Shown here: piece by piece, positions 1,550 through 60,522 of the stretch | Layout: the number at the start of each line of letters is the position of its first letter | Numbering within the stretch: position 1 is the stretch's first letter | NCBI RefSeq assembly: GCF_003865345.1 | Contig: NZ_RMVE01000001.1 | Span: forward strand, 744,001 to 808,000 | Source of the DNA: Nonlabens xiamenensis | GTDB lineage: Bacteria; Bacteroidota; Bacteroidia; Flavobacteriales; Flavobacteriaceae | DNA length: 64,000 nucleotides | Reading direction: 5' to 3' | Made by a program: the position numbers and the translations under genes | Notes under the pieces: generated by a model | Seen by the model: the letters and a program-made list of their open reading frames with translations, nothing else | What the model was told of the DNA's origin: nothing | Databases searched by the model: none

Positions 1550-2614
1550 ATGTATAAAAACCTATTATTCAGTGTGTTGGCGGTTATCGCTTTCGCGAAA
1601 GCGGCACATGCACAGTCATCGGGACAAGCCAAACAATACAAAGTCAAGACAGTAGCTTTCTACAATCTTGAGAATCTTTTTGACATAGAGGATGATACAT
1701 CGATTAACGACGAAGCCAGTCCGATCATGGAAATGGCCGAAGGTGTCAGAGCCTCTGTATATGAGAAAAAGCTCACCAATATGGCCCGAGTAATCAGAAA
1801 GATCGGTGCTGCCAAAGCGCAAACTGCTCCTGCTTTGGTCGGAGTCTGTGAGATTGAAAACAGAAAAGTGCTGGAGGACCTTATTAATCATCCACTGCTG
1901 AGAGAGTTTGACTACGGTATTGTACATTACGATTCTCCTGACCGCAGGGGTATTGACACTGGCCTGCTTTATAAAAAGGCAGATTTCAAAGTGTTAAACA
2001 GCGTTTCCAAGGAGCTCCTTATTTATGATAAAAGTGATGGCGATCGTATCTATACCAGGGACCAATTGGTGGTCACCGGTGAGTTGGATGGAGACAAAAT
2101 CAGTCTGATTGTAAATCACTGGCCATCGCGTCGTGGAGGTGAACAAAAAAGTAGACCGAACCGTGTGGCTGCTGCTGCTTTAAACAAACAGGTCATCGAT
2201 TCGTTGCATAGTGTGGACGCAATGTCTAAAGTTATGATCATGGGTGATCTCAATGACGACCCGATTAATGAAAGCGTGTTGGTAACACTAAATGCCCAGC
2301 AGGAACGAGAAAATGTAAAGCCGCAGGCCATTTATAATCCATACATCCAGATGCTAAAGGATGGTTATAATACACTGGCATATAGGGATGCCGGAAATAT
2401 ATTTGACCAAATCATGCTTACTTACCCACTGCTGGTCGAAGCCAAGCAACCTGGTTATAAATATTATATGGCAGGTATCTATAATCCTAGTTTTATGACC
2501 AATAAAGAAGGAAGGTACAAAGGTTATCCTTTCCGAAGTTTTGCCGATGGAACTTTTACGGGTGGTTTTAGTGACCATTTCCCCGTTTACGTTTATCTGG
2601 TCAAGGAAATTTAA
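1550..2614 (+). CDS. Secreted endonuclease/exonuclease/phosphatase (EEP) family protein
   Basis: A 354-residue protein of the EEP (DNase I-like) fold with a Sec signal peptide (cleavage near AHAQ, residue 22). Metal- and substrate-binding motifs of the family are visible: YNLENLFD (about 38-45), GVCEIEN (98-104, with the catalytic Glu), NHWPSRRGG (near 190), MGDLNDDP (near 232) and a terminal SDHFPV (near 344). These fit a metal-dependent phosphodiesterase or nuclease acting in the periplasm or outside the cell. The exact substrate (DNA, RNA, lipid or sugar phosphate) is not determined. The iterated palindrome CGCTTTCGCGAAAGCG lies inside the signal peptide and encodes AFAKA (residues 14-18). 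A terminator follows at 2642. Confidence 0.85.
   Translation: MYKNLLFSVLAVIAFAKAAHAQSSGQAKQYKVKTVAFYNLENLFDIEDDTSINDEASPIMEMAEGVRASVYEKKLTNMARVIRKIGAAKAQTAPALVGVCEIENRKVLEDLINHPLLREFDYGIVHYDSPDRRGIDTGLLYKKADFKVLNSVSKELLIYDKSDGDRIYTRDQLVVTGELDGDKISLIVNHWPSRRGGEQKSRPNRVAAAALNKQVIDSLHSVDAMSKVMIMGDLNDDPINESVLVTLNAQQERENVKPQAIYNPYIQMLKDGYNTLAYRDAGNIFDQIMLTYPLLVEAKQPGYKYYMAGIYNPSFMTNKEGRYKGYPFRSFADGTFTGGFSDHFPVYVYLVKEI
1588..1603. repeat. Iterated palindrome, perfect 16-mer copy
   Basis: CGCTTTCGCGAAAGCG, a perfect palindrome, inside the signal-peptide codons of the EEP nuclease gene, read as AFAKA. One of ten exact GCTTTCGCGAAAGC copies in the window. Confidence 0.95.
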
Positions 2615-2641
2615 CCAGATAAAAATCCTAAAATAAACAAG

Positions 2642-2681
2642 TCCTTTGAGCAGATTTTCCATCTGAACAAAGGATTTTTTT
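2642..2681 (+). terminator. Rho-independent terminator after the nuclease gene
   Basis: The outer stem TCCTTTG/CAAAGGA and the inner stem CAGAT/ATCTG form a hairpin followed by a run of seven T, 27 bases after the nuclease stop codon. Confidence 0.8.
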
Positions 2682-2759
2682 GTGGTCTGAAAGTTGAAAT
2701 ATGAAGTTTATTGAAACGCCAATATTCATGGATTCAAGACGTTAAGCGTGTTCCAGAGT

Positions 2760-3122
2760 TTAAAAATGGTAAAATGCATCCTTGATATGCTCCAGTTTGG
2801 TACCCTGCTTATTCCTGATGATCGCCACAATATCAAAACGGACTTCTACATTATCTGTAATATATTCTTGTACGTAATGATCTGCGGTAGCTATGAGTTT
2901 TTTAATTTGTTTTGGTTTTAAAAAGGTCTGGGGATCGCCAAAATCTGGAGTAGATCTTGTTTTTACCTCAATAATGGCGATAATATCATTCTTTCTAGCA
3001 ATGATGTCTATTTCTCCTTTATTATAGGTATAGTTTCTTTTCAAGATGTCATAACCTTCTTTTTGAACAAAGCTCGCTGCCATGTCCTCACCTTCTGTTC
3101 CTAATATATTGTGATCTGCCAT
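2760..3122 (-). CDS. YraN family (UPF0102) protein, predicted nuclease fold
   Basis: A 120-residue protein matching the YraN/UPF0102 family in length and motifs. An N-terminal GEDMAASFVQKEGY helix is followed by the restriction-endonuclease-like core GEIDIIARKNDIIAIIEVKTR (about residues 37-57), where E, D and EVK form the likely metal site. The family is widespread; a Holliday-junction-resolvase-like role has been suggested but is not established. Its ATG directly follows the stop codon of the LD-carboxypeptidase gene (stop 3123-3125, start 3122), so the two are cotranscribed. Confidence 0.85.
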   Translation of the reverse strand: MADHNILGTEGEDMAASFVQKEGYDILKRNYTYNKGEIDIIARKNDIIAIIEVKTRSTPDFGDPQTFLKPKQIKKLIATADHYVQEYITDNVEVRFDIVAIIRNKQGTKLEHIKDAFYHF

Positions 3123-7380: not shown

Positions 7381-9441
7381 ATGAGTAAGCAACAAAGATT
7401 TACGATCACCGCTGCACTTCCTTACACCAACGGGCCTGTCCATATTGGGCATCTTGCAGGTGTGTACGTGCCAGCCGATATCTATGCCAGATACCTGCGA
7501 CTTAAAGGAAAAGATGTAGCTTTTATTTGTGGAAGTGATGAGCACGGTGTGCCTATCACCATCAAGGCAAAAAAGGAAGGCATCTCTCCACAGGAATTGG
7601 TCGATCGCTACCATACCATGATTGGAGATTCTTTTGAGGAGTTTGGGATCTCTTTTGATAATTACAGCCGTACCAGTGCGCCTATACACCATGAGACCGC
7701 CAGTGCCTTTTTCACCCAACTTTATCATGATGGGAAATTTGTGGAAAAGGTGACAGAACAACTCTATGACGCACAGGCAGACCAGTTTCTGGCCGATCGT
7801 TTTGTAGTGGGTACCTGTCCCAAGTGCGGCAATCCAGAATCCTATGGGGATCAATGTGAAAAATGTGGTACCAGCCATAATGCCACGGATCTGATCAATC
7901 CTAAAAGTGCCATCACAGGCAACCAACCACAACTGAAGGAAACTAAACATTGGTTCCTTCCGCTGGATGAGTATAGTGAATGGTTGAACCAATGGATTGT
8001 TGAGGACCATGCTACCGACTGGAAGAGCAACGTGGTAGGTCAAGTTAAAAGTTGGATTACTGACGGCTTGCATCCCAGAGCTGTTACTCGAGATCTGGAC
8101 TGGGGAATTCCAGTGCCAGTTAAAGGTGCTGAGGGTAAAGTGCTGTACGTTTGGTTTGATGCTCCTATCGGATACATTTCAGCTACCAAAGAATGGGCGG
8201 CTCGAGAAAACAAAAACTGGGAAGACTATTGGAAAGATGAGGATACCAGCCTGGTTCATTTCATAGGTAAGGACAACATAGTTTTCCATTGTATAATTTT
8301 TCCAGCCATGCTTAAGGCACACGGAGATTTTATATTGCCAGAAAACGTTCCCGCTAATGAATTTCTCAACCTGGAGGATGATAAAATTTCTACGTCCAGA
8401 AATTGGGCCGTATGGCTTCACGAATATTTACAGGATTTTCCAGGTCAACAGGACGTGCTGAGATATGTGTTAACGGCCAATGCTCCAGAAACAAAGGACA
8501 ACAATTTTACCTGGAAAGACTTTCAAGCCCGTAATAACAACGAACTTGTAGCCAATTTGGGGAATTTTGTCAACCGTGTGGTGGTACTGACTAACAAATA
8601 TTACGGCGGCGTGGTGCCTCAACCTACCGGCCTGGAACCACGGGACAAGGAACTCCTGGAAAAAATCAAGACTTATCCTGGCAACATAGGTGGTAGTCTG
8701 GAACGTTACCGCTTTCGCGAAAGCCTCGCCGAACTCATGCATCTATCCAGTTTGGGTAACCGTTATATCGCTGAAGAAGGCCTCGAGCCCTGGAAACTGG
8801 TCAAAACCGATCCGGAAAAAGTTCAAAACATCATGTACGTGTGCTTGCAACTCACAGCTGCGCTCGCAGTCCTCAGCGAACCTTTTCTTCCACATACGTC
8901 TAAAAAACTTAGGCACATCTTAGGTTTATCAGATTCAGTAAGCTGGGAGACTGTTGAAAGTGAAAAAGCCTTGCTAGCCGCAGGACATCAGGTCCAAAAG
9001 TCACAATTGCTCTTTTCAAAAATTGAGGATGAACAAATTCAGGCGCAGTTGGATAAGCTCGCTACCACAAAAGCCAATAATACCACGCAAAACCCAAAAC
9101 TCATGCCGCAAAAAGATGAAACCCAGTACGATGATTTTATGAAGATGGATCTGCGGGTAGGAGAAATTCTTACTGCAGAAAAAATGCCGAAGACCGATAA
9201 ATTGATGGTGATGACCGTAGATACTGGTATTGACAAACGTACCATTGTGTCCGGAATTGCTCAGCATTATAAAGCTGAGGACCTGGTCGGTCGAAAGGTA
9301 ACCGTTTTGGTCAACCTGGCACCAAGAAAATTAAGAGGTGTTGAATCACAAGGAATGATTCTACTGGCCGAAGATCCAGAGGGTAAATTGGTCTTTGTTA
9401 ATCCAGATGATGAGATTCTGAACGGAGCCACCATCGCCTAA
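7381..9441 (+). CDS. metG: Methionyl-tRNA synthetase
   Basis: A 686-residue class I aminoacyl-tRNA synthetase charging tRNA-Met. The HIGH motif is in [10 protein letters not shown] (about residues 16-25). The zinc knuckle is [18 protein letters not shown] (about 146-163). The KMSKS loop reads KISTSR (about 335). The anticodon-binding helical domain follows. The C-terminal 110 residues form an EMAP/tRNA-binding OB fold ([23 protein letters not shown], near 585 on) that also dimerises the enzyme. Length and domain order are normal for the long bacterial form. The iterated palindrome at 8711 encodes RFRES in the anticodon-binding domain without an insertion. Confidence 0.97.
8711..8724. repeat. 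Iterated palindrome, 14-mer core copy
   Basis: GCTTTCGCGAAAGC inside metG, read in the frame that gives RFRES. The flanks are C on the left and C on the right, so the 16-mer has one end mismatch. Confidence 0.95.
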
Positions 9442-11156: not shown

Positions 11157-13382
11157 ATGAATGCCCCTTTCATTGGAACTACAACTGTTCTTATGAAACA
11201 TTTATGTCGCGTTGTCATGGTAGGAGCCCTTTTTTCAACGGGTCTGGCCGCAGCGCAAAACACACAGGAAAAGGATTCGCTCACCGCAGAAAAGCTGGAT
11301 GAGGTACTGGTCAAGGCCGTACGCGTAGATGCCAATTCGCCAATCACCCACAGCAATCTCTCTGAAAAGGAAATTGTTAAAAGAAATCTGGGCCAAGATT
11401 TACCCACCATCATTAATTTCCTACCCTCAGTAGTTACCACGAGTGACGCAGGTGCCGGGATTGGTTACACCAGTTTTAGGGTGCGTGGGGTAGATGCCAG
11501 ATCAACCAACGTTACCATCAATGGTATTCCGTATAATGATGCAGAGTCCCTGGGAACCTTTTTTGTCAATTTAGGGGACTTTTCTTCATCGGTAGAAAGC
11601 CTGCAGTTGCAACGCGGTGTGGGAACCAGTACCAATGGAAGCGGGGCTTTTGGAGCCAGTTTAAACTTGCTTACCGATGCCATTGAATCCGAGGCCTCTG
11701 GTCAAATTTCTAATTCGTTTGGTAGTTTTAACAGCAGGAAACATACGGTAAAATTTTCTACTGGCCTGCTGAATGAACATGTTGAGATCGCCGGTCGCTT
11801 GTCCAATATTGCCTCAGATGGTTTTGTAGACCGTGCCAGCACCGACTTAAAATCCTATTTCCTTCAAGGCTCCTATGTCGATGATAAACGCCTGATCAAG
11901 GCCATTACGTTTGGTGGGGAGGAAGTCACCTATCAATCATGGTTTGGGCTAACGCCTGAGCAGCTGGCTGAGGACCGCCAATTCAATCCCGCTGGCCAAT
12001 ACACGGATGAAAATGGAGAAACAAGATTCTATGACCGCGAGGTGGATGATTACCGACAAGACCACTACCAGCTGCACTGGAACGAGCGTTTTGACAACAA
12101 ATGGTCAGCAAATTTAGGCTTGAACTACACCTACGGTCGTGGCTTCTTTGAACAATTTCGCGAGGATGACGATTTTGATACCTACGGATTTGACCCATTG
12201 GTTGTTAACGGTCAACCTGTTAATACCACAGACCTTGTGCGTCGTCGCTGGTTAGACAATGATTATTATGTGGCCAACCTCAATCTGAATTACAAGGACA
12301 ATAAGGCCGATATTCTAACGGGAGTTTCCTTCAGTCACTATGATGGAGATCATTATGGTGAGGTGATCTGGGCGCGTTTTGCCTCCCAAAGCGAGATTCG
12401 GGATCGTTATTATGGTGGGAATGGAAAGAAGAATGATGTTTCCGCTTTCGCGAAAGCGAACATTAAACTCGATGACAAATTCCAGTTGTATGCCGATCTA
12501 CAGGTGCGTAACGTCAATTATGAGACTTCGGGAATCGACTCTGATTTGGCGGCATTCAACGTAGATGAGAATTATACGTTTTTCAATCCGAAAGCAGGCT
12601 TGACTTATGCCTTTGACACCAGCAACGATTTCTACTTTTCTTATGCAAGGGCAAATAGAGAACCCAATAGAGATGACTTTCAAAACAATCCAGAGATCGA
12701 GCCCGAGCAACTCAATGATTTTGAATTGGGCTGGCGACACCGCAAGGGGAATTTCAGTTTGAATGCCAATGCTTATTTTATGTATTACAACCAGCAACTC
12801 GTATTGACCGGTGCCATCAATGATGTCGGGGCTTTGATCAGAGAAAATTCTGGAGAGAGTTATAGGTTGGGCCTAGAACTAGAAGCCAATGTTCAACTCG
12901 GGAAGAAATGGTTGCTTCAACCCAATCTTACGTTAAGCAGCAACAAAAACCTGGAGACCGTCCGATCTTTTGATGGAGAAATTCAAAACTTGGGCAGTAC
13001 TGATATTGCCTACTCTCCTGAAGTCATTGCCGCCAATGCTGTAGTTTTTCAGCCAGTAAAATCATTACAAATATCACTGTTGAGCAAATATGTAGGTCAG
13101 CAATTTATGAGTAATACCGAGGCGTCGCTGTCCCAATTGGATGACTTCTTTATCAATGATTTGAACTTGGTTTATACCATTGAGACCAATTCCATATTTG
13201 AAAGTGTTGTTTTCACTGGATTGGTGAATAATATTTTTGATGTGGAATACATCTCAAATGGTTATTACTTTTCCTTTGACGACGACTTTTCTAATCCAGG
13301 GACTGTTACAACGGTAGAAGGAGTCGGCTACTATCCGCAGGCGGGTGTTAACTATTTATTAGGTGCGACCTTTAACTTTTAA
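11157..13382 (+). CDS. TonB-dependent receptor under TPP control (likely thiamine uptake)
   Basis: A 741-residue outer-membrane receptor without a carboxypeptidase-like domain. It has a signal peptide (MKHLCRVVMVGALFSTGLAAAQ if ATG 11193 is used; ATG 11157 adds 12 residues), a TonB-box-like region DEVLVKAVRV, a plug with GYTSFRVRGVDARSTNVTINGIPYNDAES and SLQLQRGVGTSTNGSGAFG, and a long barrel ending in aromatic F (LLGATFNF). The TPP riboswitch upstream points to import of thiamine or a precursor; TPP-regulated TonB receptors (Omr1 type) have been predicted in Bacteroidota by comparative genomics. No inner-membrane thiamine transporter or thi gene is next to it here. A terminator follows at 13405. 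Confidence 0.88.
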   Translation: MNAPFIGTTTVLMKHLCRVVMVGALFSTGLAAAQNTQEKDSLTAEKLDEVLVKAVRVDANSPITHSNLSEKEIVKRNLGQDLPTIINFLPSVVTTSDAGAGIGYTSFRVRGVDARSTNVTINGIPYNDAESLGTFFVNLGDFSSSVESLQLQRGVGTSTNGSGAFGASLNLLTDAIESEASGQISNSFGSFNSRKHTVKFSTGLLNEHVEIAGRLSNIASDGFVDRASTDLKSYFLQGSYVDDKRLIKAITFGGEEVTYQSWFGLTPEQLAEDRQFNPAGQYTDENGETRFYDREVDDYRQDHYQLHWNERFDNKWSANLGLNYTYGRGFFEQFREDDDFDTYGFDPLVVNGQPVNTTDLVRRRWLDNDYYVANLNLNYKDNKADILTGVSFSHYDGDHYGEVIWARFASQSEIRDRYYGGNGKKNDVSAFAKANIKLDDKFQLYADLQVRNVNYETSGIDSDLAAFNVDENYTFFNPKAGLTYAFDTSNDFYFSYARANREPNRDDFQNNPEIEPEQLNDFELGWRHRKGNFSLNANAYFMYYNQQLVLTGAINDVGALIRENSGESYRLGLELEANVQLGKKWLLQPNLTLSSNKNLETVRSFDGEIQNLGSTDIAYSPEVIAANAVVFQPVKSLQISLLSKYVGQQFMSNTEASLSQLDDFFINDLNLVYTIETNSIFESVVFTGLVNNIFDVEYISNGYYFSFDDDFSNPGTVTTVEGVGYYPQAGVNYLLGATFNF
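12443..12458. repeat. Iterated palindrome, perfect 16-mer copy
   Basis: CGCTTTCGCGAAAGCG inside the thiamine-type TonB receptor gene, read as AFAKA in the barrel region. Confidence 0.95.
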
Positions 13383-15491: not shown

Positions 15492-17264
15492 ATGGTAAGA
15501 TCCTTACTTTCCCAAATTGATGATCCAGCAGATTTAAGACAACTGGAGACCGAACAATTACCTCAATTGGCTGGCGAACTGCGTGATTTCATCATTGATG
15601 TCGTGGCAACCAAAGAAGGACATTTGGGCGCAAGTCTGGGTGTGGTAGAGCTTACCATCGCATTGCATTATGTGTTCCAAACTCCCAAAGACTTGTTGGT
15701 CTGGGACGTGGGACACCAAGCCTATGGGCACAAAATTTTGACTGGTAGGAGAGTTGATTTTCATACCAATCGGGATCTGGGTGGTTTGTCGGGATTTCCC
15801 AAAAGAGCCGAAAGTGTTTACGATACCTTTGGCACAGGTCATAGTTCCACTGCCATTAGTGCTGCATTGGGAATGGCCATGGCCAGTGCATTAAAAGGTG
15901 TAGATACTAAGCATGTGGCGGTAGTAGGGGATGCCAGTATTGCCAGTGGGATGGCTTTTGAAGCTTTAAACCATGCAGGTGTGAGCGGTGCAGATCTCTT
16001 GGTCATTCTCAACGACAATGCGATTGGAATAGACCCTAGTGTAGGCGCTCTGAAGGACTACCTCACGAAAACAAAATCAGGTAAGGTTACCGGAAGGGAT
16101 AACATTTTTGAGGCGTTAAATTTTGACTATTCAGGACCTATCGATGGACATAATCTGGAGCTGTTGATCCAAGAATTGAATCGGCAACGATCACTTTCAG
16201 GTCCTAGATTGCTTCATGTGCGTACCCTTAAAGGCAAAGGACTAAAACAAGCCGAGCAAGATCAGGTGCGCTATCACGCTCCTGGAAAGTTTGATAAATA
16301 TACAGGTGAGATTCCTGCTAGTGATACCAGTGAGCTTCCGCCAAAATTCCAGGATGTGTTTGGGATTACATTGACCGAATTGGCTGCAAAGAATCCAAAA
16401 GTCGTAGGGATTACTCCTGCCATGCCTACCGGAAGTTCAATGAAGATAATGATGGATGCCTATCCGGATCGGGCTTTTGATGTGGGTATTGCAGAACAAC
16501 ATGCCGTCACTCTTGCTGCTGGTATGGTCACTCAGGGATTGGTCCCGTTTTGTAATATTTACTCTACATTTCTTCAACGAGCCTACGATCAGGTCGTACA
16601 TGATGTCGCATTGCAGAAATTGCCAGTGGTCTTCTGCCTTGACCGAGCAGGACTGGTCGGTAAGGATGGTGCAACACATCACGGTGTATATGACCTGGCC
16701 TATTTAAACTGCATTCCTAATATGATCCTTTCAGCGCCCATGGATGCTATCGAACTGCGCCAGATGATGTACACAGCTTCACAAGGACTGAACCAGCCCA
16801 TCGCTATCAGATATCCCAGGGGACGAGGACAATTGCGGGATTGGCAAGTAGACTTCAGGGAGATAAAACTGGGAAAGGCCCGTGTACTCCACCAATCCTC
16901 AAAAATTGCGGTCCTTAGTTTGGGAAGCATTGGTAGCATGGTGCAGGATGCGATCGTCGACCTGCAATTCAAACCTACGCACGTAGATATGCGATTTCTC
17001 AAGCCATTGGACACCCAAGTGTTGGATGAAATTATTGAACATCATGAACATATCATCACTATTGAGGATGGTTGTGTGATAGGAGGTCTTGGAAGTATGG
17101 TAACCGACTATGTTTCCTCAAAACGAGGCTTAGGTTCAGTCCCTGTGATTCATCGTTTAGGGATTCCAGATCAATTTATCGAACATGGTTCTACGGCAGA
17201 ATTACACAAGCTAGCAGGGATTGATCGTGATACTTTAACAGCGCTAATTATGAGGCTGGTCTAG
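15492..17264 (+). CDS. dxs: 1-deoxy-D-xylulose-5-phosphate synthase
   Basis: A 590-residue ThDP-dependent transketolase-family enzyme joining pyruvate and glyceraldehyde 3-phosphate to DXP, the entry to the MEP isoprenoid route and also a thiamine/pyridoxal precursor. Visible are VWDVGHQAYGHKILTGR and FGTGHSSTAISAALGMA, the ThDP/Mg motif GDASIASGMAFEALNHAG with a later NDN, and the pyrimidine-binding DVGIAEQHAVTLAAGM. It is slightly shorter than the 620-640 residues common elsewhere but complete. No other in-frame ATG lies nearby. The stop codon TAG (17262-17264) overlaps the stop of the convergent gene through the palindrome CTAG at 17261-17264. Confidence 0.96.
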   Translation: MVRSLLSQIDDPADLRQLETEQLPQLAGELRDFIIDVVATKEGHLGASLGVVELTIALHYVFQTPKDLLVWDVGHQAYGHKILTGRRVDFHTNRDLGGLSGFPKRAESVYDTFGTGHSSTAISAALGMAMASALKGVDTKHVAVVGDASIASGMAFEALNHAGVSGADLLVILNDNAIGIDPSVGALKDYLTKTKSGKVTGRDNIFEALNFDYSGPIDGHNLELLIQELNRQRSLSGPRLLHVRTLKGKGLKQAEQDQVRYHAPGKFDKYTGEIPASDTSELPPKFQDVFGITLTELAAKNPKVVGITPAMPTGSSMKIMMDAYPDRAFDVGIAEQHAVTLAAGMVTQGLVPFCNIYSTFLQRAYDQVVHDVALQKLPVVFCLDRAGLVGKDGATHHGVYDLAYLNCIPNMILSAPMDAIELRQMMYTASQGLNQPIAIRYPRGRGQLRDWQVDFREIKLGKARVLHQSSKIAVLSLGSIGSMVQDAIVDLQFKPTHVDMRFLKPLDTQVLDEIIEHHEHIITIEDGCVIGGLGSMVTDYVSSKRGLGSVPVIHRLGIPDQFIEHGSTAELHKLAGIDRDTLTALIMRLV

Positions 17265-20071
17265 CGTTTGATCACCTTTTGGGTTTGTACAAAACCTTCC
17301 TTTTGGATGCGTATCAAATACATGCCACTGGGACCATAGATCTCAATGCGAATCGGTGTCGCGCTGATAGAAGATAACTGGTTGGATACTTCCCTTCCAG
17401 AAAGGTCAAAAACACGAATGTTAGCTTCACCCAACGTGGATGAGGCTGCTAATTGGAAAACTCCGTCAGAAATTGTTGGATAGACACTGATTTCTGTAGT
17501 TTCCGCTTCCGCGAAAGCGATACCCAATGTATCAAATTTACCTGTAAACATACCGCGACCATGGGTAGTGGCCAAAATCGTATTATCGGACAACCTGAGG
17601 TCTAAGTCGACTACCTTGACATTGGTCATACCGTTGATCAGAGGTTGCCAAGCTGGATTCGTGTTGGCAAAATCGCTTGTGGCATAGATTCCTAATTCAG
17701 TTCCAATCATAACCTCTCCTGGTAGTAATGGATTGGCAAGAATTGTTTTGACGGGAATATCGGGTAAGTTACCATCCTTGGGTTCCCAGGTTGTTCCGCC
17801 GTCATTGGTGTACCAGATATTGTTGACCCCATAATTGTGCATGGTCAGGTAGATTTCCTGTTCAGAGGCACCAAACTCAATATCTGAAACGCTTCCCAAA
17901 AAGTTCGGGTCAGAGATGTCCAACCAAACCGGATTGGTGGTGTTTGCATTTTCAACCTTGACCAATTTTGAAAATTCAGTACCTATAAAAAGGCTGGTAC
18001 TTGTAGTGGTGTAGGGAGAAACTTTTAAGGCAGTTGGTCTAGAGCTGGATATCAAAGAATTACTCAGCAACGTACAGGCTGAAGCTCCAGAAAACAATTG
18101 ACAAGCCTCAATGGCATTTGTTCCATTAAAATTTCGGCTGTTGGAAAAGAAGTAATCTAGATTAGCATCCAGTTCGGCTACATTGATAAAATCTCCATCT
18201 GGATTATTGCCGCCATCACCGCAATTGGGAGTGGAGATACAATATCTAAAATTATAGGTTGGGTAGGTCACATTTCTATGATTATTAAACTGGGAGGTGA
18301 TCACCGCGTAATTATCAACCTCATCAATAGCTACATATCCGCCATCACCACCCAACACGGTTCCAAAAGCATTCTCACCAGGCGTAGCGTCATTGACAGC
18401 GAGCGTACCGTTATCTTGTGTACCGCCTGCCAGATCATCCCCATTGGCCTGACCGAGAGCTGCTATACTCCCGTAATAGAATTGAGTGACATTATAACCA
18501 TTGTTTCTTGTTAGAATAGCGCTGGAGTTGGTATTGGCTTGGTTAAAACTCTGCGCCCATGAGACTCCGCCATCGCTCCCGATCAGTCCCTCATTTGGAT
18601 TTCCAGGTTTGAAACTGATGGCATGTATATCTGCGTGTACAAAAGGGGCGTTAATGGTTTGAAGTCCATTGCCATTCATCCACTTAGAAATCTGGCTGTA
18701 TGAAGTCCCGCCATTTACTGATCTGAAGCTGTCAATTCCGCCCACGTAAACAATTTGGTCATTGGTGGGATCCGTCTCAATCACCAAATCATAAAAGGCC
18801 TGTCCTCTGGTAAAATCGGTAGAAGGAATAGAATTATCTGCATCATTGGGCTCGTTGATTGGCGTGACACTGGCGAAGGCATCATCTGTAACAAACAAAT
18901 CTCCAGCGCTCAACACTTGTGCGGCAATATAAAACTTGTTGGCATCCTGACCTGAAGCTGCAATTTCTACCCGATTAGCACCAGGGATAACGTTTCTGAG
19001 CGACCAACTCACCCCATCTGTTGAGCGGTAAACCCGGCCACCGCCTTGACCAGTTCCTGCTGAATTGATGGTGCTCATATAGAGTGTATTATCAGCGCTA
19101 ATCTCAAAATCGTTGGGGGAGACATAAAAGGTTTGTCCGCTAAAATTATAGGATAAGATTGGTGATTCTACCCTGCTCCAGGTCGAACCATCATCAATAC
19201 TTTTATAAATACCCGTATTCTGTGTTCCCAACACGCCGACAGGATTGGAAATATTGAAGTTTGGAGAATTGTACAAGATAGATCCCACCCCTATGTAAAT
19301 CTCAGCATTTCCATTATTATCCCAAACGACAACGTCATTAATGCAAAATATTCCCGCTTTAAAGAGATTAGTTCCGGTGCTAGCATCTCCAGGACCAGCA
19401 AATGGTACTGGTACCGCTGCCCATGTGTTTCCTCCGTCAGAAGATTTATAAAGTCCATCGCCGATGGCTGCACCTCCTGTATATTGCTCGCCTGTACCGA
19501 TGTATATGTTTTGCGGATTAAGTGGATCGATGGCATAACTTTGCACACTCAAGTTGGCTGCCACTCCCGGAACAATAGTCCACTGTTCATTCGGGTCAGT
19601 TATATCATCATTTACCCAAAGTCCGCCGCCAACACCGCCTGCAAAAACCCTGTTGTAATCAATCCCATCTCCATTGTTTGCACCTACGTCGTTAGGATCG
19701 TAAAAAACTACGCGTGTACGACCACCTACATTATTGGGACCGCGTTCTTCCCATGCCCTAGCGCCCGAACCTGGAACACTTTTTCCTATGCTATTTGTCT
19801 CAACAGGTTGAACCTTAAAAGGAGTTGGATATCCTAGTCTGGGATTCATGGTAAGCTCCCACATGCGTTCATTATAGGCATTAGGAGGGAGGCCATGAGC
19901 CTTGCGCTCTTCTTTTGACATGGATAGAGATTTATGAACTGCACTATTCAAAACAAATTCTCTGTGTAGTGCCTGTGCGTCCTCCATTGTAGTATCAGGA
20001 GAACAATGCCAAAAGCCAGCTCCAATAAAAAGTACTGAAGTGGTAAAAAATAAAATACGCTTGATTTTCAT
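17261..20071 (-). CDS. T9SS-secreted protein with BNR/sortilin-like repeats
   Basis: A 936-residue exported protein. An N-terminal hydrophobic signal (MKIKRILFFTTSVLFIGAGFW) is followed by a long series of beta-propeller-type blocks with repeated GLYKSSDGGNTW, GIYKSIDDGSTW and NIWYTNDGGTTWEP Asp-box motifs. The last 80 residues are a type A T9SS sorting domain (SVYPTISDGVFQL, RVFDLSGREVSN, SGMYLIRIQKEGFVQTQKVIKR). It should end up outside the cell or on its surface. A cysteine right after FWH is not a good lipobox, so I do not call it a lipoprotein. The substrate is unknown. A near-copy of the palindrome (17504-17519) encodes AFAEA between the propeller part and the tail. Confidence 0.85.
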   Translation of the reverse strand: MKIKRILFFTTSVLFIGAGFWHCSPDTTMEDAQALHREFVLNSAVHKSLSMSKEERKAHGLPPNAYNERMWELTMNPRLGYPTPFKVQPVETNSIGKSVPGSGARAWEERGPNNVGGRTRVVFYDPNDVGANNGDGIDYNRVFAGGVGGGLWVNDDITDPNEQWTIVPGVAANLSVQSYAIDPLNPQNIYIGTGEQYTGGAAIGDGLYKSSDGGNTWAAVPVPFAGPGDASTGTNLFKAGIFCINDVVVWDNNGNAEIYIGVGSILYNSPNFNISNPVGVLGTQNTGIYKSIDDGSTWSRVESPILSYNFSGQTFYVSPNDFEISADNTLYMSTINSAGTGQGGGRVYRSTDGVSWSLRNVIPGANRVEIAASGQDANKFYIAAQVLSAGDLFVTDDAFASVTPINEPNDADNSIPSTDFTRGQAFYDLVIETDPTNDQIVYVGGIDSFRSVNGGTSYSQISKWMNGNGLQTINAPFVHADIHAISFKPGNPNEGLIGSDGGVSWAQSFNQANTNSSAILTRNNGYNVTQFYYGSIAALGQANGDDLAGGTQDNGTLAVNDATPGENAFGTVLGGDGGYVAIDEVDNYAVITSQFNNHRNVTYPTYNFRYCISTPNCGDGGNNPDGDFINVAELDANLDYFFSNSRNFNGTNAIEACQLFSGASACTLLSNSLISSSRPTALKVSPYTTTSTSLFIGTEFSKLVKVENANTTNPVWLDISDPNFLGSVSDIEFGASEQEIYLTMHNYGVNNIWYTNDGGTTWEPKDGNLPDIPVKTILANPLLPGEVMIGTELGIYATSDFANTNPAWQPLINGMTNVKVVDLDLRLSDNTILATTHGRGMFTGKFDTLGIAFAEAETTEISVYPTISDGVFQLAASSTLGEANIRVFDLSGREVSNQLSSISATPIRIEIYGPSGMYLIRIQKEGFVQTQKVIKR
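17504..17519. repeat. Degenerate copy of the iterated palindrome
   Basis: CGCTTCCGCGAAAGCG differs from the consensus at one base and encodes AFAEA in place of AFAKA in the BNR-repeat gene. Confidence 0.8.
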
Positions 20072-21453: not shown

Positions 21454-21606
21454 TGTCTTTTTTTGGGCAATATACACAGGATTTTGACGTCCGTCAGCGC
21501 TTTTTGATTTTACCATTTCTTAACGTAGAATGAATAGGACTTAATGGTGTGATAACTCATAAACGTCCTTTGTGGTTGTTCTTTTGCAAAATATAAATAT
21601 GACCAA

Positions 21607-28071: not shown

Positions 28072-28087
28072 CGCTTTCGCGAAAGCG
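28072..28087. repeat. Iterated palindrome, perfect 16-mer copy (intergenic)
   Basis: CGCTTTCGCGAAAGCG located 35 bases after the phosphate transporter stop codon, one of two copies outside genes. It has no T-run after it, so it is not an ordinary terminator. Confidence 0.95.
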
Positions 28088-39372: not shown

Positions 39373-39383
39373 AGGACTTAAAG

Positions 39384-44468: not shown

Positions 44469-45410
44469 TTACATTATAAAATTATCGCTGATGGACTGAT
44501 TGTTCTGCACGCTTTGCATGACTCCTGCAAATAGTCCTGCACAAGACAGTACTCTAATTTTTTCGCTTTGTTGCTTCAAAGGAATGGAGTCTGTAACGAT
44601 CAGTTCCAGCAATTTTGAGTGTTCAATACGCTCATAAGCCTTTCCAGATAGGATGGCATGCGTACAAATGGCTCTTACGCTTTTGGCGCCACGTTCCATC
44701 ATAACGTCGGCTGCTTTGGTCAATGTTCCTGCAGTATCTACCATGTCATCTACCAGGACAACATTTTTACCAGTCACATCACCAATCAATTCCATGTGAG
44801 AGATGATATTGGCCTTCTGGCGTTGCTTGTAACAAACTACCACATCGCTTTCAAGCGTTTTCGCGTAAGCGTATGCACGCTTTGATCCACCCATGTCAGG
44901 TGAGGCAATGGTCAGGTCTTGCAGGTCCAGGCTCCTGAGGTACGGGACAAATAGCGAACTCGCAAAAAGATGATCCACTGGTTTTTCAAAGAACCCCTGA
45001 ATCTGGTCAGCGTGGAGATCCATTGTGATAATACGTGTGGCTCCGGCTGTTTCAAGAATCTTGGCGATCATTTTTGCGCCTATGGGAACCCTGGGTTTAT
45101 CCTTTCTATCTTGGCGCGCCCATCCAAAATAAGGAATAACGGCTGTGATATGTCTGGCACTGGCTCTTTTGGCCGCGTCCATCATCAAAAGCATTTCCAT
45201 CAAGTGGTCACTACTGGGTTGGGTAGAGCCGATGATGAAGATGCGTCTGCCTCTAATCGATTCCTCAAAAGATGGCTGGAACTCACCGTCACTGAAGGTG
45301 GAAAAATTCACCTGTCCCAGTTCGGCACCATATTCCTTAGCGATCGCTGCAGCAAGATCCATGCTCTGGCGACAACCGAATAATTTTGCATCTTTTAAGG
45401 CATAACTCAT
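44469..45410 (-). CDS. prs: Ribose-phosphate pyrophosphokinase
   Basis: A 313-residue PRPP synthetase (ribose 5-phosphate plus ATP to PRPP) feeding nucleotide, His and Trp synthesis. Motifs include FSDGEFQPSFEESIRGR, PYFGWARQDRKDKPRVPI (catalytic flexible region), DLHADQIQGFF and the PRPP-binding VLVDDMVDTAGTLTKAADVM. It is first gene of the prs-rplY unit, with a -7 box at 45451-45444 and a 33-base leader. Part of its sequence (44858-44871) matches a two-mismatch variant of the iterated palindrome. Confidence 0.96.
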   Translation of the reverse strand: MSYALKDAKLFGCRQSMDLAAAIAKEYGAELGQVNFSTFSDGEFQPSFEESIRGRRIFIIGSTQPSSDHLMEMLLMMDAAKRASARHITAVIPYFGWARQDRKDKPRVPIGAKMIAKILETAGATRIITMDLHADQIQGFFEKPVDHLFASSLFVPYLRSLDLQDLTIASPDMGGSKRAYAYAKTLESDVVVCYKQRQKANIISHMELIGDVTGKNVVLVDDMVDTAGTLTKAADVMMERGAKSVRAICTHAILSGKAYERIEHSKLLELIVTDSIPLKQQSEKIRVLSCAGLFAGVMQSVQNNQSISDNFIM

Positions 45411-49922: not shown

Positions 49923-51380
49923 TCAGATTTCCTTCCTCAAACGGGCTACAGGTATATCGAGTTGTTCGCGATATTTAGCCACGGTTCTTCGGGCGATAGG
50001 ATATCCTTTTTCTTTTAAAATCTCAGCCAGTTTTTGATCGGTTAGTGGTTTTTTCTTGCTTTCCTCATTCACCACTGTTTCCAAAATCTTTTTTATCTCT
50101 CTGGTAGAGACTTCTTCTCCATCGGTGTTGGTCATCGATTCTGAAAAGAATTCTTTGATCAACTTTGTTCCATAGGGCGTATCTACGTATTTGGAATTGG
50201 CGACTCGAGAGACGGTGGAAACATCCATATCAATCTCGTCTGCAATGTCTTTAAGGATCATGGGTCTCAAATTACGCTCATCGCCAGTAAGAAAGTACTC
50301 TTTTTGGTAGTGCATGATGGTGGACATGGTCACATAAAGTGTTTCTTGTCTTTGCTTAATAGCTTCTATAAACCATTTGGCACCATCCAGTTTTTGTTTG
50401 ATAAACATTACCGCATCCTTCTGGGATTTGGTTTTTTCCTTGGCCTCTTTATAGCCGCGCAACATATTGGAATAGTCTCTGGATACGTGTAACTCTGGAG
50501 CATTTCTACCGTTTAATGTCAATTCCAACTCACCATCCTTGATTCTAATTGTGAAATCTGGAACCACTTGTTCCACGATACGTGTACTTCCACCCATGTA
50601 AGATCCTCCTGGCTTAGGGTTGAGGTGCTCAATATCTTCAATGGCATCCCTGAGCTCATCCTCTGAAATGTCATATTTGGCCAAGAGTTTGTTGTAATGC
50701 TTCTTGCTAAATGCATCAAAAGAATCCTTGATCAATTTTATGGCCAGTTCATTAGATTGATCACGACGCTTTCGCGAAAGCTGTATCAATAAACACTCCT
50801 GGAGATTTCTTGCTCCAACACCCGCTGGATCTAGTTCTTGAACCGTTTTCAGAATACGCTCCACTTTCTCTACCTCGGTGTAGATATTCATGGTAAAGGC
50901 TAGGTCATCTGTAATATCTTCCAGGGAACGTCTGATGTACCCGCTGGCGTCAATACTTCCCACCAAAAACTCGGCAATGGCATAATCCTCATCGCTCAGA
51001 CGTCTGGTGTTCAATTGATCGATCAATGTTTGGGTAAATGATTTTCCAGCGGCATAAGGCACACTTTTCTCATCATCATCTGCACTGTAATTGTTGGCTC
51101 TTGTTCGATAATCCGGGATTTCATCATCACTCAGATAATCATCTACATCGATCTCTGTTTCCATCGAATCGTTGCCCTCATCATAGTCATCCTGATTTGA
51201 AAATTCGTCAAAATCTTCTTCTGATTTTTCCTTGCCGCTATCCAGTGCAGGGTTTTCTTCCAATTCTGATTTTACCCGTTGCTCAAAAGCCTGGGTGGGC
51301 AATTGGATCAACTTCATCAACTGAATTTGTTGAGGAGAAAGTTTTTGGGATAATTTGAAATTTAATGATTGTTTGAGCAT
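49923..51380 (-). CDS. rpoN: RNA polymerase sigma-54 factor
   Basis: A 485-residue alternative sigma factor needing AAA+ enhancer-binding activators. Region I is Gln/Leu-rich (LKQSLNFKLSQKLSPQQIQLMKLIQLPTQAFEQRV), followed by a very acidic region II (about residues 50-105). The core-binding part contains LEDITDDLAF and LQELDPAGVGARNLQECLLIQL. The HTH region has DIADEIDMDVSTVSRVANSKYV, and the RpoN box ARRTVAKYRE is near the end. The palindrome at 50768 encodes LSRK in LLIQLSRKRRDQ. Confidence 0.96.
   Translation of the reverse strand: MLKQSLNFKLSQKLSPQQIQLMKLIQLPTQAFEQRVKSELEENPALDSGKEKSEEDFDEFSNQDDYDEGNDSMETEIDVDDYLSDDEIPDYRTRANNYSADDDEKSVPYAAGKSFTQTLIDQLNTRRLSDEDYAIAEFLVGSIDASGYIRRSLEDITDDLAFTMNIYTEVEKVERILKTVQELDPAGVGARNLQECLLIQLSRKRRDQSNELAIKLIKDSFDAFSKKHYNKLLAKYDISEDELRDAIEDIEHLNPKPGGSYMGGSTRIVEQVVPDFTIRIKDGELELTLNGRNAPELHVSRDYSNMLRGYKEAKEKTKSQKDAVMFIKQKLDGAKWFIEAIKQRQETLYVTMSTIMHYQKEYFLTGDERNLRPMILKDIADEIDMDVSTVSRVANSKYVDTPYGTKLIKEFFSESMTNTDGEEVSTREIKKILETVVNEESKKKPLTDQKLAEILKEKGYPIARRTVAKYREQLDIPVARLRKEI
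50768..50781. repeat. Iterated palindrome, 14-mer core copy
   Basis: GCTTTCGCGAAAGC in rpoN, read as LSRK on the minus strand; flanks C and T. Confidence 0.95.
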
Positions 51381-55789: not shown

Positions 55790-57988
55790 TTATAGTTCGA
55801 GGTAGAAGGTAAACTTCATCGCCAGGTTATCCTCAAAATCAGATAAATGATAAGGGCCATGCCGGTAGGTAAAGCTTAAACCGAAACCGAATAACAATTT
55901 ATTCAATTCAAAGCCGCTTTCAAAATAGCCTCTATCCAATGTTTTGAAGTCGATGTTTAGATGTCGATCCGGATGTTCTAAATCTCCCCAGGCCGCTCTT
56001 GTGATTAATACCATCTCTGGTTGCAGGAAGGGAAAAATTTTGAAAGGAGCCAAACGGTGCTTGACCTGGCCGATCAGAAGTTTGTCAGAAAAGAACTCGT
56101 TAAAAAACATGGTTTCAAAACTGCGCCTACCTGCCACTGAAAATCGCTGTAGCAATTCATCCTTGTTAGGGGCGTTGGGATAGGCGTGATACAGGTGGGT
56201 GAGTGGTATTCTTCCAGTACCATAATGGCCTTCCAGACTGAGGTCTGTAGAGGAGTTGTTCAGATTTTTAGTCGTATAGGCTATTTTGCCAGATAACTTG
56301 AGGTAATTAAAATTTGATCCTGCCAGGCCTTTGATTCCTTGAGTAAGCTGCCCACTCAGGATGGGGTAGCCTCGTTCTGTTTCCTGATAGCCGTTGGGCG
56401 TACGCATAAATTTACTGACCGGACTCCAGCGTACACCTACGGCTATTTCTGACAAGGTGTAATTCCCAAGGGCATCATTAGGATCAGCTTCTGGGGCAAA
56501 TTGATAGGCGGTGGTTTGATTGATCCGCTTTCGCGAAAGCAACACCTCACTGATTACTGAAGGGAACAGCCGTTGTTGAAGTGATAAACCGTACTCTCTA
56601 TACAAGTAAAAGGTAGGAATATTGATGAGCCGAGGTTCAAATAGAGAATATACCCGAGCGTCGGTCAGAAAACTTTCTGCAGCAAATTCGGTGATATCAT
56701 CTTCCCTGTAAATATTGAGCCAAGTGTTTTTCTCCTCGTTCAACCGATAACCCAGGTTGATATTGTATTTAAAGGTGTCGTCTTTGGTTCCATAGGCCAG
56801 GTAACCGCCTACTCTGAAAGAATCGCTTAGTTTCTCATTGGTCTGCCCCCCAATACCGACTCGGAAAGCTTCATAATCATTGAATTTAACCAAGTATTTC
56901 AGGTCAATATCAAAGATCCCTACTGGATAATAGCCAATTTTAAATTTGTCCAGGGTTTCTAGTCGCCTTGTAATTCGGCTGGCATCGACTATACTGTCCA
57001 AGTTCACAAACGAGGCTAATTCTGTAGTAGAGAAACTATCGTTGTTGCGGTATTCCTTCCAATAAGATTCCTTTTTGGTAATGGCGCTGTCCAGCACTTC
57101 GATTTCGAGACCGCGCCGACCGTAGGTAATTTCCTTATTGGTTTTAAAATCTGTATTGCGTGCCTGGATGATCAGATAAAGCTCCTCTGGCTCAGTATTA
57201 TTTTTTTTGTTATCCCTTTCTAAACCAACCTCCAATCGGCCTCCAAACAATTCAAGTTCCTTCTTGGTTTTTTCTTTGCGTATAGAAAGACTGCGGGAGC
57301 TTTCTAACCAAACCTCCAAGGCTGGATCATAGACAAAATCATGGTTTGCATTGATGTTAATGTCGCCAGTGGTCTCCAGTATGGCTCTGGCTACAGCAAA
57401 ATTCAATTGATCGATATATAAATAGCCTGATAGCAAGCTTTTGTCCTCCACGTTCTTGGGACGGAAGCCGACTTTAGTTACAGGCCTGCCGTCGATCAGG
57501 GAGTCAGAGATTCGCTTAAAATTGAAGAAATTCTTTCCATCATCACCTAGCGGATTTTTATAGGCTTGGTCTAATATGATATAAGTGTCTTTGTATAAAT
57601 GCTCGCTTTGGAAATTGATGTTGTAAATAGGGTAAACTGGTTCATCAAAGCCAGGCATGTAGGCGCCAGTTATGATCTCTTTATAGCCCTCTTTGTGATC
57701 GTGAATGTGCTTGGAAGTCTTTTCGGCAAAAAGGACTCCGGTCTTTTTCAGGGTTTTACGTAGTTCAGTTTTTTTATAGCCAGGACCAGTCAAGGCCTCA
57801 GGATCCCCACTGACTTTAAGGATCTCATAGGAATTGTATTGAAACGAATTGAATTTGTGCCTGGGATTATTTTTCTTTTTAGAGATAAGTACCTTGGTTA
57901 TCAGATCATCTACTGGAAATGCAGAATCGTTTTGCGCAGGAGCGACCAGACTAAGAAAAAGGATAAAAACTCCGGTGAAAAATTTCAT
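55790..57988 (-). CDS. DUF5686 family outer-membrane protein
   Basis: A 732-residue protein with a signal peptide (MKFFTGVFILFLSLVAPAQ). The first 250 residues are a soluble region (KKKNNPRHKFNSFQYNSYEIL, LLSGYLYIDQLNFAVARAILETTGDININ); then come many amphipathic strands typical of a large beta-barrel, ending LAMKFTFYLEL. This fits DUF5686, which often has an N-terminal carboxypeptidase-like domain; that domain is absent here, so it is the short form. The function is unknown. The palindrome at 56527 encodes LSRK. Confidence 0.82.
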   Translation of the reverse strand: MKFFTGVFILFLSLVAPAQNDSAFPVDDLITKVLISKKKNNPRHKFNSFQYNSYEILKVSGDPEALTGPGYKKTELRKTLKKTGVLFAEKTSKHIHDHKEGYKEIITGAYMPGFDEPVYPIYNINFQSEHLYKDTYIILDQAYKNPLGDDGKNFFNFKRISDSLIDGRPVTKVGFRPKNVEDKSLLSGYLYIDQLNFAVARAILETTGDININANHDFVYDPALEVWLESSRSLSIRKEKTKKELELFGGRLEVGLERDNKKNNTEPEELYLIIQARNTDFKTNKEITYGRRGLEIEVLDSAITKKESYWKEYRNNDSFSTTELASFVNLDSIVDASRITRRLETLDKFKIGYYPVGIFDIDLKYLVKFNDYEAFRVGIGGQTNEKLSDSFRVGGYLAYGTKDDTFKYNINLGYRLNEEKNTWLNIYREDDITEFAAESFLTDARVYSLFEPRLINIPTFYLYREYGLSLQQRLFPSVISEVLLSRKRINQTTAYQFAPEADPNDALGNYTLSEIAVGVRWSPVSKFMRTPNGYQETERGYPILSGQLTQGIKGLAGSNFNYLKLSGKIAYTTKNLNNSSTDLSLEGHYGTGRIPLTHLYHAYPNAPNKDELLQRFSVAGRRSFETMFFNEFFSDKLLIGQVKHRLAPFKIFPFLQPEMVLITRAAWGDLEHPDRHLNIDFKTLDRGYFESGFELNKLLFGFGLSFTYRHGPYHLSDFEDNLAMKFTFYLEL
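56527..56540. repeat. Iterated palindrome, 14-mer core copy
   Basis: GCTTTCGCGAAAGC in the DUF5686 gene, read as LSRK on the minus strand; flanks C and A. Confidence 0.95.
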
Positions 57989-58105: not shown

Positions 58106-58118
58106 TCATAGGCTGTTT

Positions 58119-58673: not shown

Positions 58674-58701
58674 CCTTATAAATGTTTTGGATCTGCTGTA
58701 G

Positions 58702-58709: not shown

Positions 58710-58720
58710 TTGCCGCTTTT

Positions 58721-59428
58721 TTAAAGTTGTACTTTGGTTCCTATATTTTCTCCGCTCAGTAGCCTGACGAGGTTACCCTTGGTATTCATATCAAAAACAA
58801 TGATGGGCAATTCATTTTCTTGGCTCAGGGTAAAAGCGGTAGTGTCCATTACCTTAAGTCCTTTGCGCAGCACATCATCAAACGAGATAAAATCAAATTT
58901 GGTAGCGCTTTTATCTTTCTCTGGATCAGCGGTATAGATACCATCTACGCGGGTTCCCTTTAAGATCACGTCTGCCTCGATTTCAATTGCTCTCAAGACC
59001 GCGGCACTATCTGTAGTAAAGTAGGGATTCCCTGTACCACCTCCAAAGATGACCACTCGACCTTTTTCAAGGTGTCTCATCGCTTTCCTTCTAATAAAAG
59101 GCTCTGCCACCTCATTAATTTTAATCGCAGTTTGTAACCTGGTAGGTATGCCAGCATCCTCCAGCGCACTTTGTAAGGCTAATCCATTAATAACTGTAGC
59201 CAGCATGCCCATATGGTCACCTTGAACACGGTCCATTCCGTTACTTGCTCCGGCCACACCTCTGAAGATATTTCCCCCTCCAATGACAATAGCGACTTCT
59301 ATACCTTTATCTGTGACCTCTTTGATTTCCTGCGCATATTCGGCCAGACGGGCTGGATCGATTCCGTATTGTCGGTCGCCCATTAGGGCTTCTCCAGATA
59401 GTTTTAATAGAATACGTTTGTATTTCAT
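58721..59428 (-). CDS. pyrH: UMP kinase
   Basis: A 235-residue amino-acid-kinase-fold enzyme converting UMP to UDP. It has [14 protein letters not shown] (ATP binding), [50 protein letters not shown] and [19 protein letters not shown] 59428 ([12 protein letters not shown]) is used; ATG 59437 would add MQA and leave hardly any leader after the -7 box at 59455-59448. It heads the pyrH-frr unit. Confidence 0.96.
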
Positions 59429-59447
59429 AGCCTGCATGTGTGTATTG

Positions 59448-59582
59448 CAAATATAAATGAATTAGCAGCCCGTAAAAACATTAATTTAGTTCAGCCAGGC
59501 GCTTCTTCAACTGATCGATATACCTCAAGACGCACCGCTCAATCTGTCTATGCTGTGTACGTGTCTGTTATATGTATCTTTG
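59448..59582. promoter_or_regulatory. Divergent -7 boxes of pyrH and the DUF3109 gene
   Basis: TATATTTG on the minus strand (59455-59448) precedes pyrH by 19 bases; TATCTTTG on the plus strand (59575-59582) precedes the DUF3109 ATG by 21 bases. The 119 bases between the boxes hold no gene. Confidence 0.55.
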
Positions 59583-59603
59583 CAACCCTCAAAAATCACA
59601 TAT

Positions 59604-60173
59604 ATGTTTCAACTGGGTAAGACTATTGTTTCTGATGATTTGTTAGAAAAAGAGTTTGTTTGCAACCTGACTGCTTGTAAAGGAGTTTGCTGTGTGGCCG
59701 GTGAAGCGGGTGCGCCATTGGAGACTGCCGAATTGGATATTCTGGATCGTGAATATGAAAAAGTAAAACCTTACCTCCGTCCTGAGGGCATTGCGGCTAT
59801 TGAATCTCAGGGCACCTGGATTGAAAGGGAGAATGGCGAGCTAGAAACACCCTTGGTCGATGGAGCAGAATGTGCCTATGCGCAGTTTAAGGAGGATGGC
59901 ACTGCTTTGTGTGGAATTGAGGCCGCCTACCGGGATGGAAAAACTAACTTTTATAAACCCATCTCTTGTCACTTGTATCCAGTGCGCATTCAGGAATACA
60001 CCGATTTTAAAGCGGTCAATTATCACAAGTGGGAAATTTGTGATGATGCCTGCGAATTAGGGGCAAATTTAGGTGTTCCGGTGTATCAGTTTGTCAAAGA
60101 AGCCTTGATCCGTAAATTTGGTGTGGATTGGTATGACGAACTCGAGGAAATTGCTCGTGAACATCATTCCTAA
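59604..60173 (+). CDS. DUF3109 family cysteine-rich protein
   Basis: A 189-residue protein starting MFQLGKTIVSDDLLEKEFVC. It carries a cysteine pattern CNLTACKGVCCVAGEAGAPL (about residues 20-39), later ECAYAQF, ALCGIEAAY, ISCHLYPVRI and ICDDACELG, which fits DUF3109 and suggests a bound metal (zinc or Fe-S). The function is unknown. ATG 59604 is preferred because it follows the -7 box and begins conserved sequence. Confidence 0.85.
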   Translation: MFQLGKTIVSDDLLEKEFVCNLTACKGVCCVAGEAGAPLETAELDILDREYEKVKPYLRPEGIAAIESQGTWIERENGELETPLVDGAECAYAQFKEDGTALCGIEAAYRDGKTNFYKPISCHLYPVRIQEYTDFKAVNYHKWEICDDACELGANLGVPVYQFVKEALIRKFGVDWYDELEEIAREHHS

Positions 60174-60522
60174 ATCTCAACATCTGCATTTGAAAAATTA
60201 GAATTTGGTCTTTTCGCTTTCGCGAAAGCGTGGATAACTTCTTCTAAGCAAAGATCAGATATTACGTAGGAAAATACGTCAAAAATCAAGTTCAATAGCC
60301 GTGGAAACGGGGGTTTGAAATCCCTCGTTCTATGAATGGTATGGAATTATGGATAAATGTTAACATCCATTCCTTCAAAGGGTTATAATGATCATTTTGT
60401 CCGGGCGCAGGAAAAATCTCATGTTGAAAACTTGTGCAAAATGCAAATGTTAATTCATCCATACCGCTGGAAAGTTTTGTCATCTTTGTTAGTCCCAAGT
60501 CATTAGAAATTAACGAGAAAAA
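60174..60522 (+). other. 349-base gap ahead of nrdB
   Basis: No gene is seen. It holds the iterated palindrome at 60215-60230, a 10-bp palindrome ATGTTAACAT at 60357-60366, and GGTATGG (60338-60344) with its complement CCATACC (60459-60465). I find no NrdR box and no cobalamin riboswitch. CATCTTTG near 60483 is one base off a -7 box. Confidence 0.5.
60215..60230. repeat. Iterated palindrome, perfect 16-mer copy (intergenic)
   Basis: CGCTTTCGCGAAAGCG 42 bases after the DUF3109 stop codon, the second copy outside genes; no T-run follows. Confidence 0.95.

Follow-up and report, generated by a model that had tools for sequence, protein, structure and literature searches.

A 64,000-nt stretch of Nonlabens xiamenensis DNA (NZ_RMVE01000001.1, positions 744,001-808,000, forward strand), referred to here as the window, carries the same 14-bp palindrome, GCTTTCGCGAAAGC, again and again, both in genes and in gaps. 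This raises the question of what such a palindrome does. We tentatively favour, while stopping short of calling it probable, the reading that each palindrome is the dimer site of a putative chromosome-wide protein, most likely one that organises the nucleoid. The ten exact copies in the initial annotation were all recovered at the starts it gave, as were the five that extend to the 16-mer CGCTTTCGCGAAAGCG (1589, 12444, 28073, 34548 and 60216). Its one-mismatch copy is present at 17505-17518, within the enclosing 16-mer at 17504-17519 that it had recorded. In addition, its placement of copies in genes as well as gaps holds: eight exact copies fall within open reading frames (ORFs), every frame being used, and those at 28073 and 60216 fall in gaps. 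At two or fewer mismatches, the window has 12 sites, compared with a mean of 0.16 and a maximum of 2 in 100 dinucleotide shuffles. The 12 sites are as follows.

1589-1602: exact palindrome, extended to the 16-mer; ORF 1550-2614, frame 0, encoding AFAKA
8711-8724: exact palindrome; ORF 7381-9441, the methionyl-tRNA synthetase gene; no conservation in two aligned relatives
12444-12457: exact palindrome, extended to the 16-mer; TonB-dependent receptor gene, ORF 11157-13382; 3-6 mismatches in six aligned relatives
17505-17518: one-mismatch copy, GCTTCCGCGAAAGC; ORF 17261-20071
21009-21022: exact palindrome; minus-strand ORF 20122-21516, a gene for an HD-domain phosphohydrolase; retained without mismatch by 19 of 20 Nonlabens relatives
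28073-28086: exact palindrome, extended to the 16-mer; gap following ORF 25760-28036
34548-34561: exact palindrome, extended to the 16-mer; minus-strand ORF 33227-34603, a TolC-like gene, close to its start
37952-37965: exact palindrome; TPR-protein gene, ORF 37579-39408
44857-44870: two-mismatch copy, GTTTTCGCGTAAGC; possibly decayed, or a chance match
50768-50781: exact palindrome; sigma-54 gene, ORF 49923-51380
56527-56540: exact palindrome; DUF5686 gene, ORF 55790-57988
60216-60229: exact palindrome, extended to the 16-mer; gap separating ORFs 59550-60173 and 60292-60729

The initial annotation held that a genome-wide count near the Markov expectation, or copies in this region only, would refute it. 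Instead, the whole genome (G000; 3,684,258 bases in 13 contigs) has 553 exact copies in its 3.68 Mb, 422 of them 16-mers, and none (0) of the reversed control pattern; therefore, the copies are not confined to the region of the window. The 22 other Nonlabens genomes searched have 288-857 copies each, or about one per 4-9 kb, and among the other 36 genomes of that search a single one, G033, had matches (6 copies). Among 397 genomes of the family, the palindrome-rich ones are four Nonlabens, G234 (408 copies) and G250 (Dokdonia sinensis, 857 copies), so that G234 and G250 represent two further rich genera beside Nonlabens; 74 of the remaining 391 have 1-19 copies and 317 have none. At the class level, 246 other genomes yielded two with a 16-mer, one copy in each. 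Meanwhile, Nonlabens and Dokdonia dominate among the matches listed in a scan of named records. In a tree of MetG (53 rows, one gene) the rich genera are not joined, at least two changes being needed, and Nonlabens stands on a long branch. No title or abstract opening among the literature matches listed describes the motif; ten papers containing the string TTTCGCGAAA stand outside this negative.

The entire length of the motif is kept. Local analyses of the own genome used 464 kb (the window and 400 kb of contig C5, together ~13% of the genome), in which exact copies number 75 and copies with one, two and three mismatches number 8, 5 and 26. For 209 control palindromes of identical letter composition, the corresponding averages are 0, 0.04, 1.1 and 13, with maxima of 0, 1, 29 and 93. 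When stretches from twenty Nonlabens relatives are added (858 kb in total), the counts become 169, 22, 10 and 42. Recognition is thus nearly all-or-none over the 14 bp. Away from the full palindrome, its inner cores show no enrichment over the Markov expectation: TCGCGA occurs 38 times (37.5 expected), TTTCGC 66 times (60.6) and TTCGCGAA 5 times (2.8). The tetranucleotide CGCG is depleted outside the palindrome in the 464 kb (507 copies, 666 expected), although the palindrome contains it. The end-biased pattern of single mismatches that Elhai described for highly iterated palindrome 1 (HIP1) of cyanobacteria was not seen among the 8 one-mismatch copies, two of which differ at an outer position and six internally.

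The sequence beside the palindrome is shaped as well. C stands at position -1 of 87% of half-flanks in the own genome, 95% in a diverged Nonlabens species used as the reference relative for many comparisons (G019), 90% in a Dokdonia set and 77% of 20 in G234; the Dokdonia set is biased in that most of its loci were chosen via the 16-mer. In the own genome, G019 and Dokdonia, T is preferred at -3, -4, -7, -10 and mostly -13, and C depletion reaches about -18. At fourfold-degenerate positions upstream of the sites, T is raised (0.47 vs 0.32) and C lowered (0.08 vs 0.23; P about 1e-7), with G also raised and A also lowered. Downstream positions give the mirror image, with more A and C and less G and T (P again about 1e-7). 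This bias falls on synonymous positions; therefore, what is shaped is the DNA and not the protein. Complementarity between left and right flanks over positions 1-12 is at about the chance level, with no position much beyond two standard deviations. Such independent flanks suggest two half-sites, as for a dimer, rather than a cruciform or an extended hairpin.

Many sites hold their places between species. Of 20 Nonlabens relatives, all but G005, which has one mismatch, carry site 21009 unchanged, although much of the surrounding DNA differs. In aligned DNA of up to 90% identity, 49 of 60 comparisons showed an own site unchanged, whereas only 1.4% of 6,030 random 14-mers were unchanged; 16 sites are represented, of which 14 had an exact counterpart in one relative or more, and some relatives' loci had been chosen for holding a site. 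When the sites were masked before alignment, which removes alignment bias, six of six own sites were exact in G019 and six of seven in the reverse direction. A protein-guided comparison between these two genomes found 11 of 12 exact in both directions, against 0.6% of 850 random 14-mers, and 34 of 44 own sites had exact counterparts when compared with the twenty relatives.

Sites also avoid one another below about 1.5 kb. Gaps shorter than this number 0 of 73 in the own genome (15.8 expected) and 9 of 83 in G019 (29.8 expected), and the coefficients of variation of the gaps are 0.55 and 0.53, respectively. In nineteen 20-kb samples of G019, the sites are evenly spread, the variance-to-mean ratio of their counts being 0.44; one further sample of very low G+C content, probably masked, was dropped. 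In the same 19 samples, from this genome only, no origin-terminus trend was seen in the form of a single harmonic (R2 0.018, P 0.87). Of 178 sites from the own genome and G019, 127 lie within ORFs of at least 60 aa and 51 lie outside them, where only 7.8% of the DNA is found. The in-ORF sites are divided 68/30/29 among the frames, frame 0, which reads Ala-Phe-Ala-Lys-Ala, being used by 68 of the 127, and 39 of the 127 fall in the first fifth of their genes.

The palindrome is also present in DNA that appears to have moved. In eight palindrome-poor Flavobacteriaceae genomes (L249-L264), palindrome-bearing stretches that hold many, not all, of their copies are ~70-97% identical to one another among the matches listed, with a copy every few kb. 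Eight proteins of one such stretch are efflux, copper-oxidase (multicopper-oxidase), permease and P-type ATPase proteins; therefore, we name these stretches metal-efflux islands. A conjugative-element reading was rejected, as the eight scanned proteins are metal-efflux types. G019 has related genes, for which 10 of 23 comparisons of its own sites and 10 of 13 of island sites were exact; one island copy (G245, 4126) has no homolog, and some have one or two mismatches. The islands have probably passed via palindrome-rich hosts.

With a stricter pattern, 20 viral contigs had a match. Eight of these contigs, covered over their full length and all selected for having a site, three being nearly one phage and others ~95% alike, hold 22 sites in 121.9 kb, or about one per 5.5 kb, which is about the host density. 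Three of the scanned loci (L218, L192, L210) contain portal, head, terminase or tape-measure genes, and the contigs L143, L161 and L214 have matches to the integrase family. In the phage families L143, L161, L214, L192, L194, L215, L218, L374 and L377, several sites stand at homologous places despite deep divergence. For example, site 10650 of L218 is kept in L377 and L374, among phage sites held in place at 64-72% identity, and its equivalent in L375, L209 and L192 has one mismatch. The hosts of these phages are probably palindrome-rich. By visual inspection, host DNA may be part of some viral contigs, L190 among them. Two phages of a Nonlabens host are site-free over the DNA examined (P12024S over 35.7 kb, P12024L over 30 of its 35.7 kb), and no integrase is among their annotations listed.

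These observations might be accounted for if each palindrome were the site of one sequence-specific protein binding as a symmetric dimer; we infer the dimer from the symmetry of the site and its independent flanks, which agree with it. Such a protein would act across the whole chromosome, with a site every 4-9 kb, and would organise the nucleoid by bridging, anchoring or spacing chromosomal DNA. The sites would be selected at each place and would be useless or harmful if doubled within about 1.5 kb, while long-resident DNA, islands and prophages included, would gain and keep about one site per 5 kb. The same protein would serve the three genera, and its role would be architectural. Chromosome organisation was one of three functions proposed in the initial annotation, and of the three it appears the best supported. 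A bolder version appears possible but on balance doubtful: an address system new to bacteria, in which a dedicated dimeric protein would read several hundred strict 14-16 bp palindromes chromosome-wide and free of methylation, with temperate phages and islands adopting the addresses and many of these kept genus-wide.

Known dimer-read sites offer a precedent. The Noc-binding sites (NBS), parS, matS and the SlmA sites are stringent palindromes of ~12-16 bp that are scattered and read by dimers, and the TTTC..GAAA arms of the present palindrome resemble those of parS and NBS. The present palindrome differs in having about ten or more times the number of sites. It shows no origin or terminus bias of the kind known for Noc/ParB-type sites (in G019), and no extra ParB paralog marks the rich genomes. 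In three reports, Noc is described as binding scattered NBSs (PMC4331003), Noc and SlmA as sequence-specific binders (PMC4726725) and the NBS as 16 bp long (PMC8429893).

Several results weigh against the nucleoid reading. A search for an additional ParB/Noc-like paralog marking the rich genomes found none: PF02195 has one match in 10 of 11 rich genomes, two in G019 and one in each of 12 poor genomes. The second match of G019 (G019:C1:1269093) lies within a 616-aa open frame. In addition, the par locus of four rich genomes holds no gene that is lacking throughout two poor ones. Together with the search for three methylase families, these comparisons yielded no candidate binder. Noc, MatP and SlmA, the known architecture systems, use tens of sites that are biased towards the origin or terminus, whereas here there are hundreds and no bias was seen, and even spacing with fixed positions would also be possible under uptake-sequence systems. 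As for conservation, 21 of the 60 comparisons come from site 21009 alone and 13 from one other site; conservation fails at 8711 and 12444; and the twenty relatives' sites are exact in the own genome in only 34 of 54 cases. Sharing between Nonlabens and Dokdonia is scarce (1 of 6 own sites, 1 of 2 from G019 and 0 of 2 from other Nonlabens loci), and with G234 it amounts to 1 of 2 own sites, 0 of 1 from G019 and 2 of 2 from Dokdonia. On these small numbers, Nonlabens and Dokdonia appear each to have gained many sites separately. The pooled counts (strictness, flanks, spacing, ORF placement) take in homologous regions. Phage sites are not always kept, as in L152 compared with L183 (which share none) and with L385, and for one of two in L130/L228, and the phage contrast sets two related site-free phages against contigs picked for having a site.

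The main rival is a self-DNA uptake signal for natural transformation, built up by biased uptake and recombination, which we regard as unlikely. The DNA uptake sequences (DUS) of Neisseriaceae and the uptake signal sequences (USS) of Pasteurellaceae occur in hundreds to thousands of copies in certain taxa, with A/T-rich flanks. The present motif is like them in its hundreds of dispersed, evenly spaced copies in only a few genera, and its T-rich flanks recall the A/T-rich flanks of Haemophilus USS. On the other hand, the motif is palindromic, as uptake sequences are not known to be, and temperate-phage contigs carry it, keeping several homologous sites at 64-72% identity, where uptake should not matter. 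ComEC-family genes (PF03772) occur in all 15 genomes tested, in 11 of 11 rich ones, which speaks for uptake, and equally in 4 of 4 poor ones, and no dialect-like palindrome was found in 20-40 kb of each of 48 poor genera. In its favour again, Riemerella columbina, which its authors place in the same family, shows a preference for own DNA in transformation (PMC7965970). A Chi-like protection or repair signal, in which a bound site would halt or redirect a nuclease or helicase from either side to the benefit of resident DNA and phages alike, seems to us still less likely. The density of one per 4-9 kb resembles that of Chi in Escherichia coli, phage contigs have sites at about the host density, and the avoidance would fit short-range redundancy. 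However, known Chi sequences are of 5-8 nt and directional, so that a 14-bp palindrome with two shaped flanks differs in kind, and the two Nonlabens phages are site-free over 35.7 and 30 kb. The repair or recombination signal suggested by the initial annotation may apply, but a palindrome is directionless, unlike known Chi-type signals.

A neutral or mutational origin, in which sequence-specific repair or conversion rewrites near-matches with no selection on function, would agree with the few near-matches and with the sites in phage contigs and islands. We hold it to be very improbable, as positions fixed across deep divergence and mutual avoidance are unexpected from local rewriting, and the flanks are shaped too. 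Even less likely is a methyltransferase target whose copies are made and maintained by methylation-directed repair, in the manner that Elhai suggested for HIP1, although the own genome has three matches to PF01555 and one to PF02086. PF00145 is absent from 6 of 11 rich genomes, the own genome included, PF01555 from 3 and PF02086 from 7; none of these three families has a match in G010, despite its 563 copies (PF02384, PF07669 and rarer families were not searched). In addition, TCGCGA is not enriched outside the palindrome (38 vs 37.5), and 14 bp exceeds known methylase targets. The methyltransferase idea of the initial annotation therefore finds no support, and a methylase of another family behind the palindrome, while possible, is unlikely. 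HIP1 and the alternate HIPs do accompany orphan methyltransferases (PMC4390886). A hairpin element, that is, a terminator or a REP-like or RNA element, is not viable as a general explanation and has a next to negligible probability: the dyad symmetry is perfect and 51 of the 178 sites lie outside ORFs, in 7.8% of the DNA, but the 127 others lie inside ORFs in all frames, and the flanks do not covary. Repetitive extragenic palindromic (REP) sequences and bacterial interspersed mosaic elements (BIME) differ for the same reasons, being intergenic with pairing arms. A subset of the sites could still act in this way.

HIP1 (GCGATCGC), with which the initial annotation had compared the palindrome, is a close parallel in some respects only. 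Both are hyper-abundant palindromes with palindromic extension, far above expectation genome-wide, dispersed over genes and intergenic DNA and conserved in position. Xu, Lawrence and Durand reportedly found in 2018 that HIP1 positions are conserved by selection and proposed a nucleoid role. The palindrome here is a different sequence and not a derivative, belongs to another phylum, is of 14-16 bp rather than 8-10 bp, and is nearly all-or-none. Unlike HIP1, it has unenriched inner cores, avoidance below 1.5 kb and a presence in temperate-phage contigs and islands, and it is not tied to the methyltransferase families tested, one rich genome (G010) lacking all three. The alternate HIPs of cyanobacteria are, like HIP1, hyper-abundant palindromes with palindromic extensions (PMC4390886).

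Other repeated motifs were also looked for. A second palindrome, GCGCCAATTGGCGC, seemed to be iterated in 40 kb of G157 and was rejected as a local repeat, because that genome has 3 copies and no other more than two (249 searched). In 20-40 kb of each of the 48 palindrome-poor genera, no other repeated palindrome of at least 12 bp was found, low-complexity sequence excluded, except AAAAGGCCTTTT, which occurs twice in G100. Repeated 12-mers were inspected in five genomes; they form clusters in two and hairpin arms in another two, and are scattered in G120. Repeats of GAGCGCAGTCGA cluster within ~1 kb in one stretch each of L333 (G121) and L356 (G100), while four copies of AAATTTCCGAAG are scattered over 20 kb (L369, genome G120). 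TTCNGAA (CTTCGGAA, TTTCAGAAA) is over-represented in all frames in L313-L314 (G083) and also in L311-L312 (G075), and is perhaps an iterated motif of the methylase type.

To our knowledge, the purpose of HIP1 is still open, and Bacteroidota are not known to have a system of the Noc, SlmA or MatP type. The palindrome of Nonlabens offers an independent HIP-like case with a longer and cleaner motif, in a group that has cultured marine representatives and in which one genome at least lacks the methylase families tested. The specificity of the palindrome suffices for a one-step pull-down, by which the protein behind a highly iterated palindrome could be identified directly. It may also trace DNA that was once in palindrome-rich hosts, as the metal-efflux islands suggest, and it may show how chromosomes are organised in Bacteroidota.

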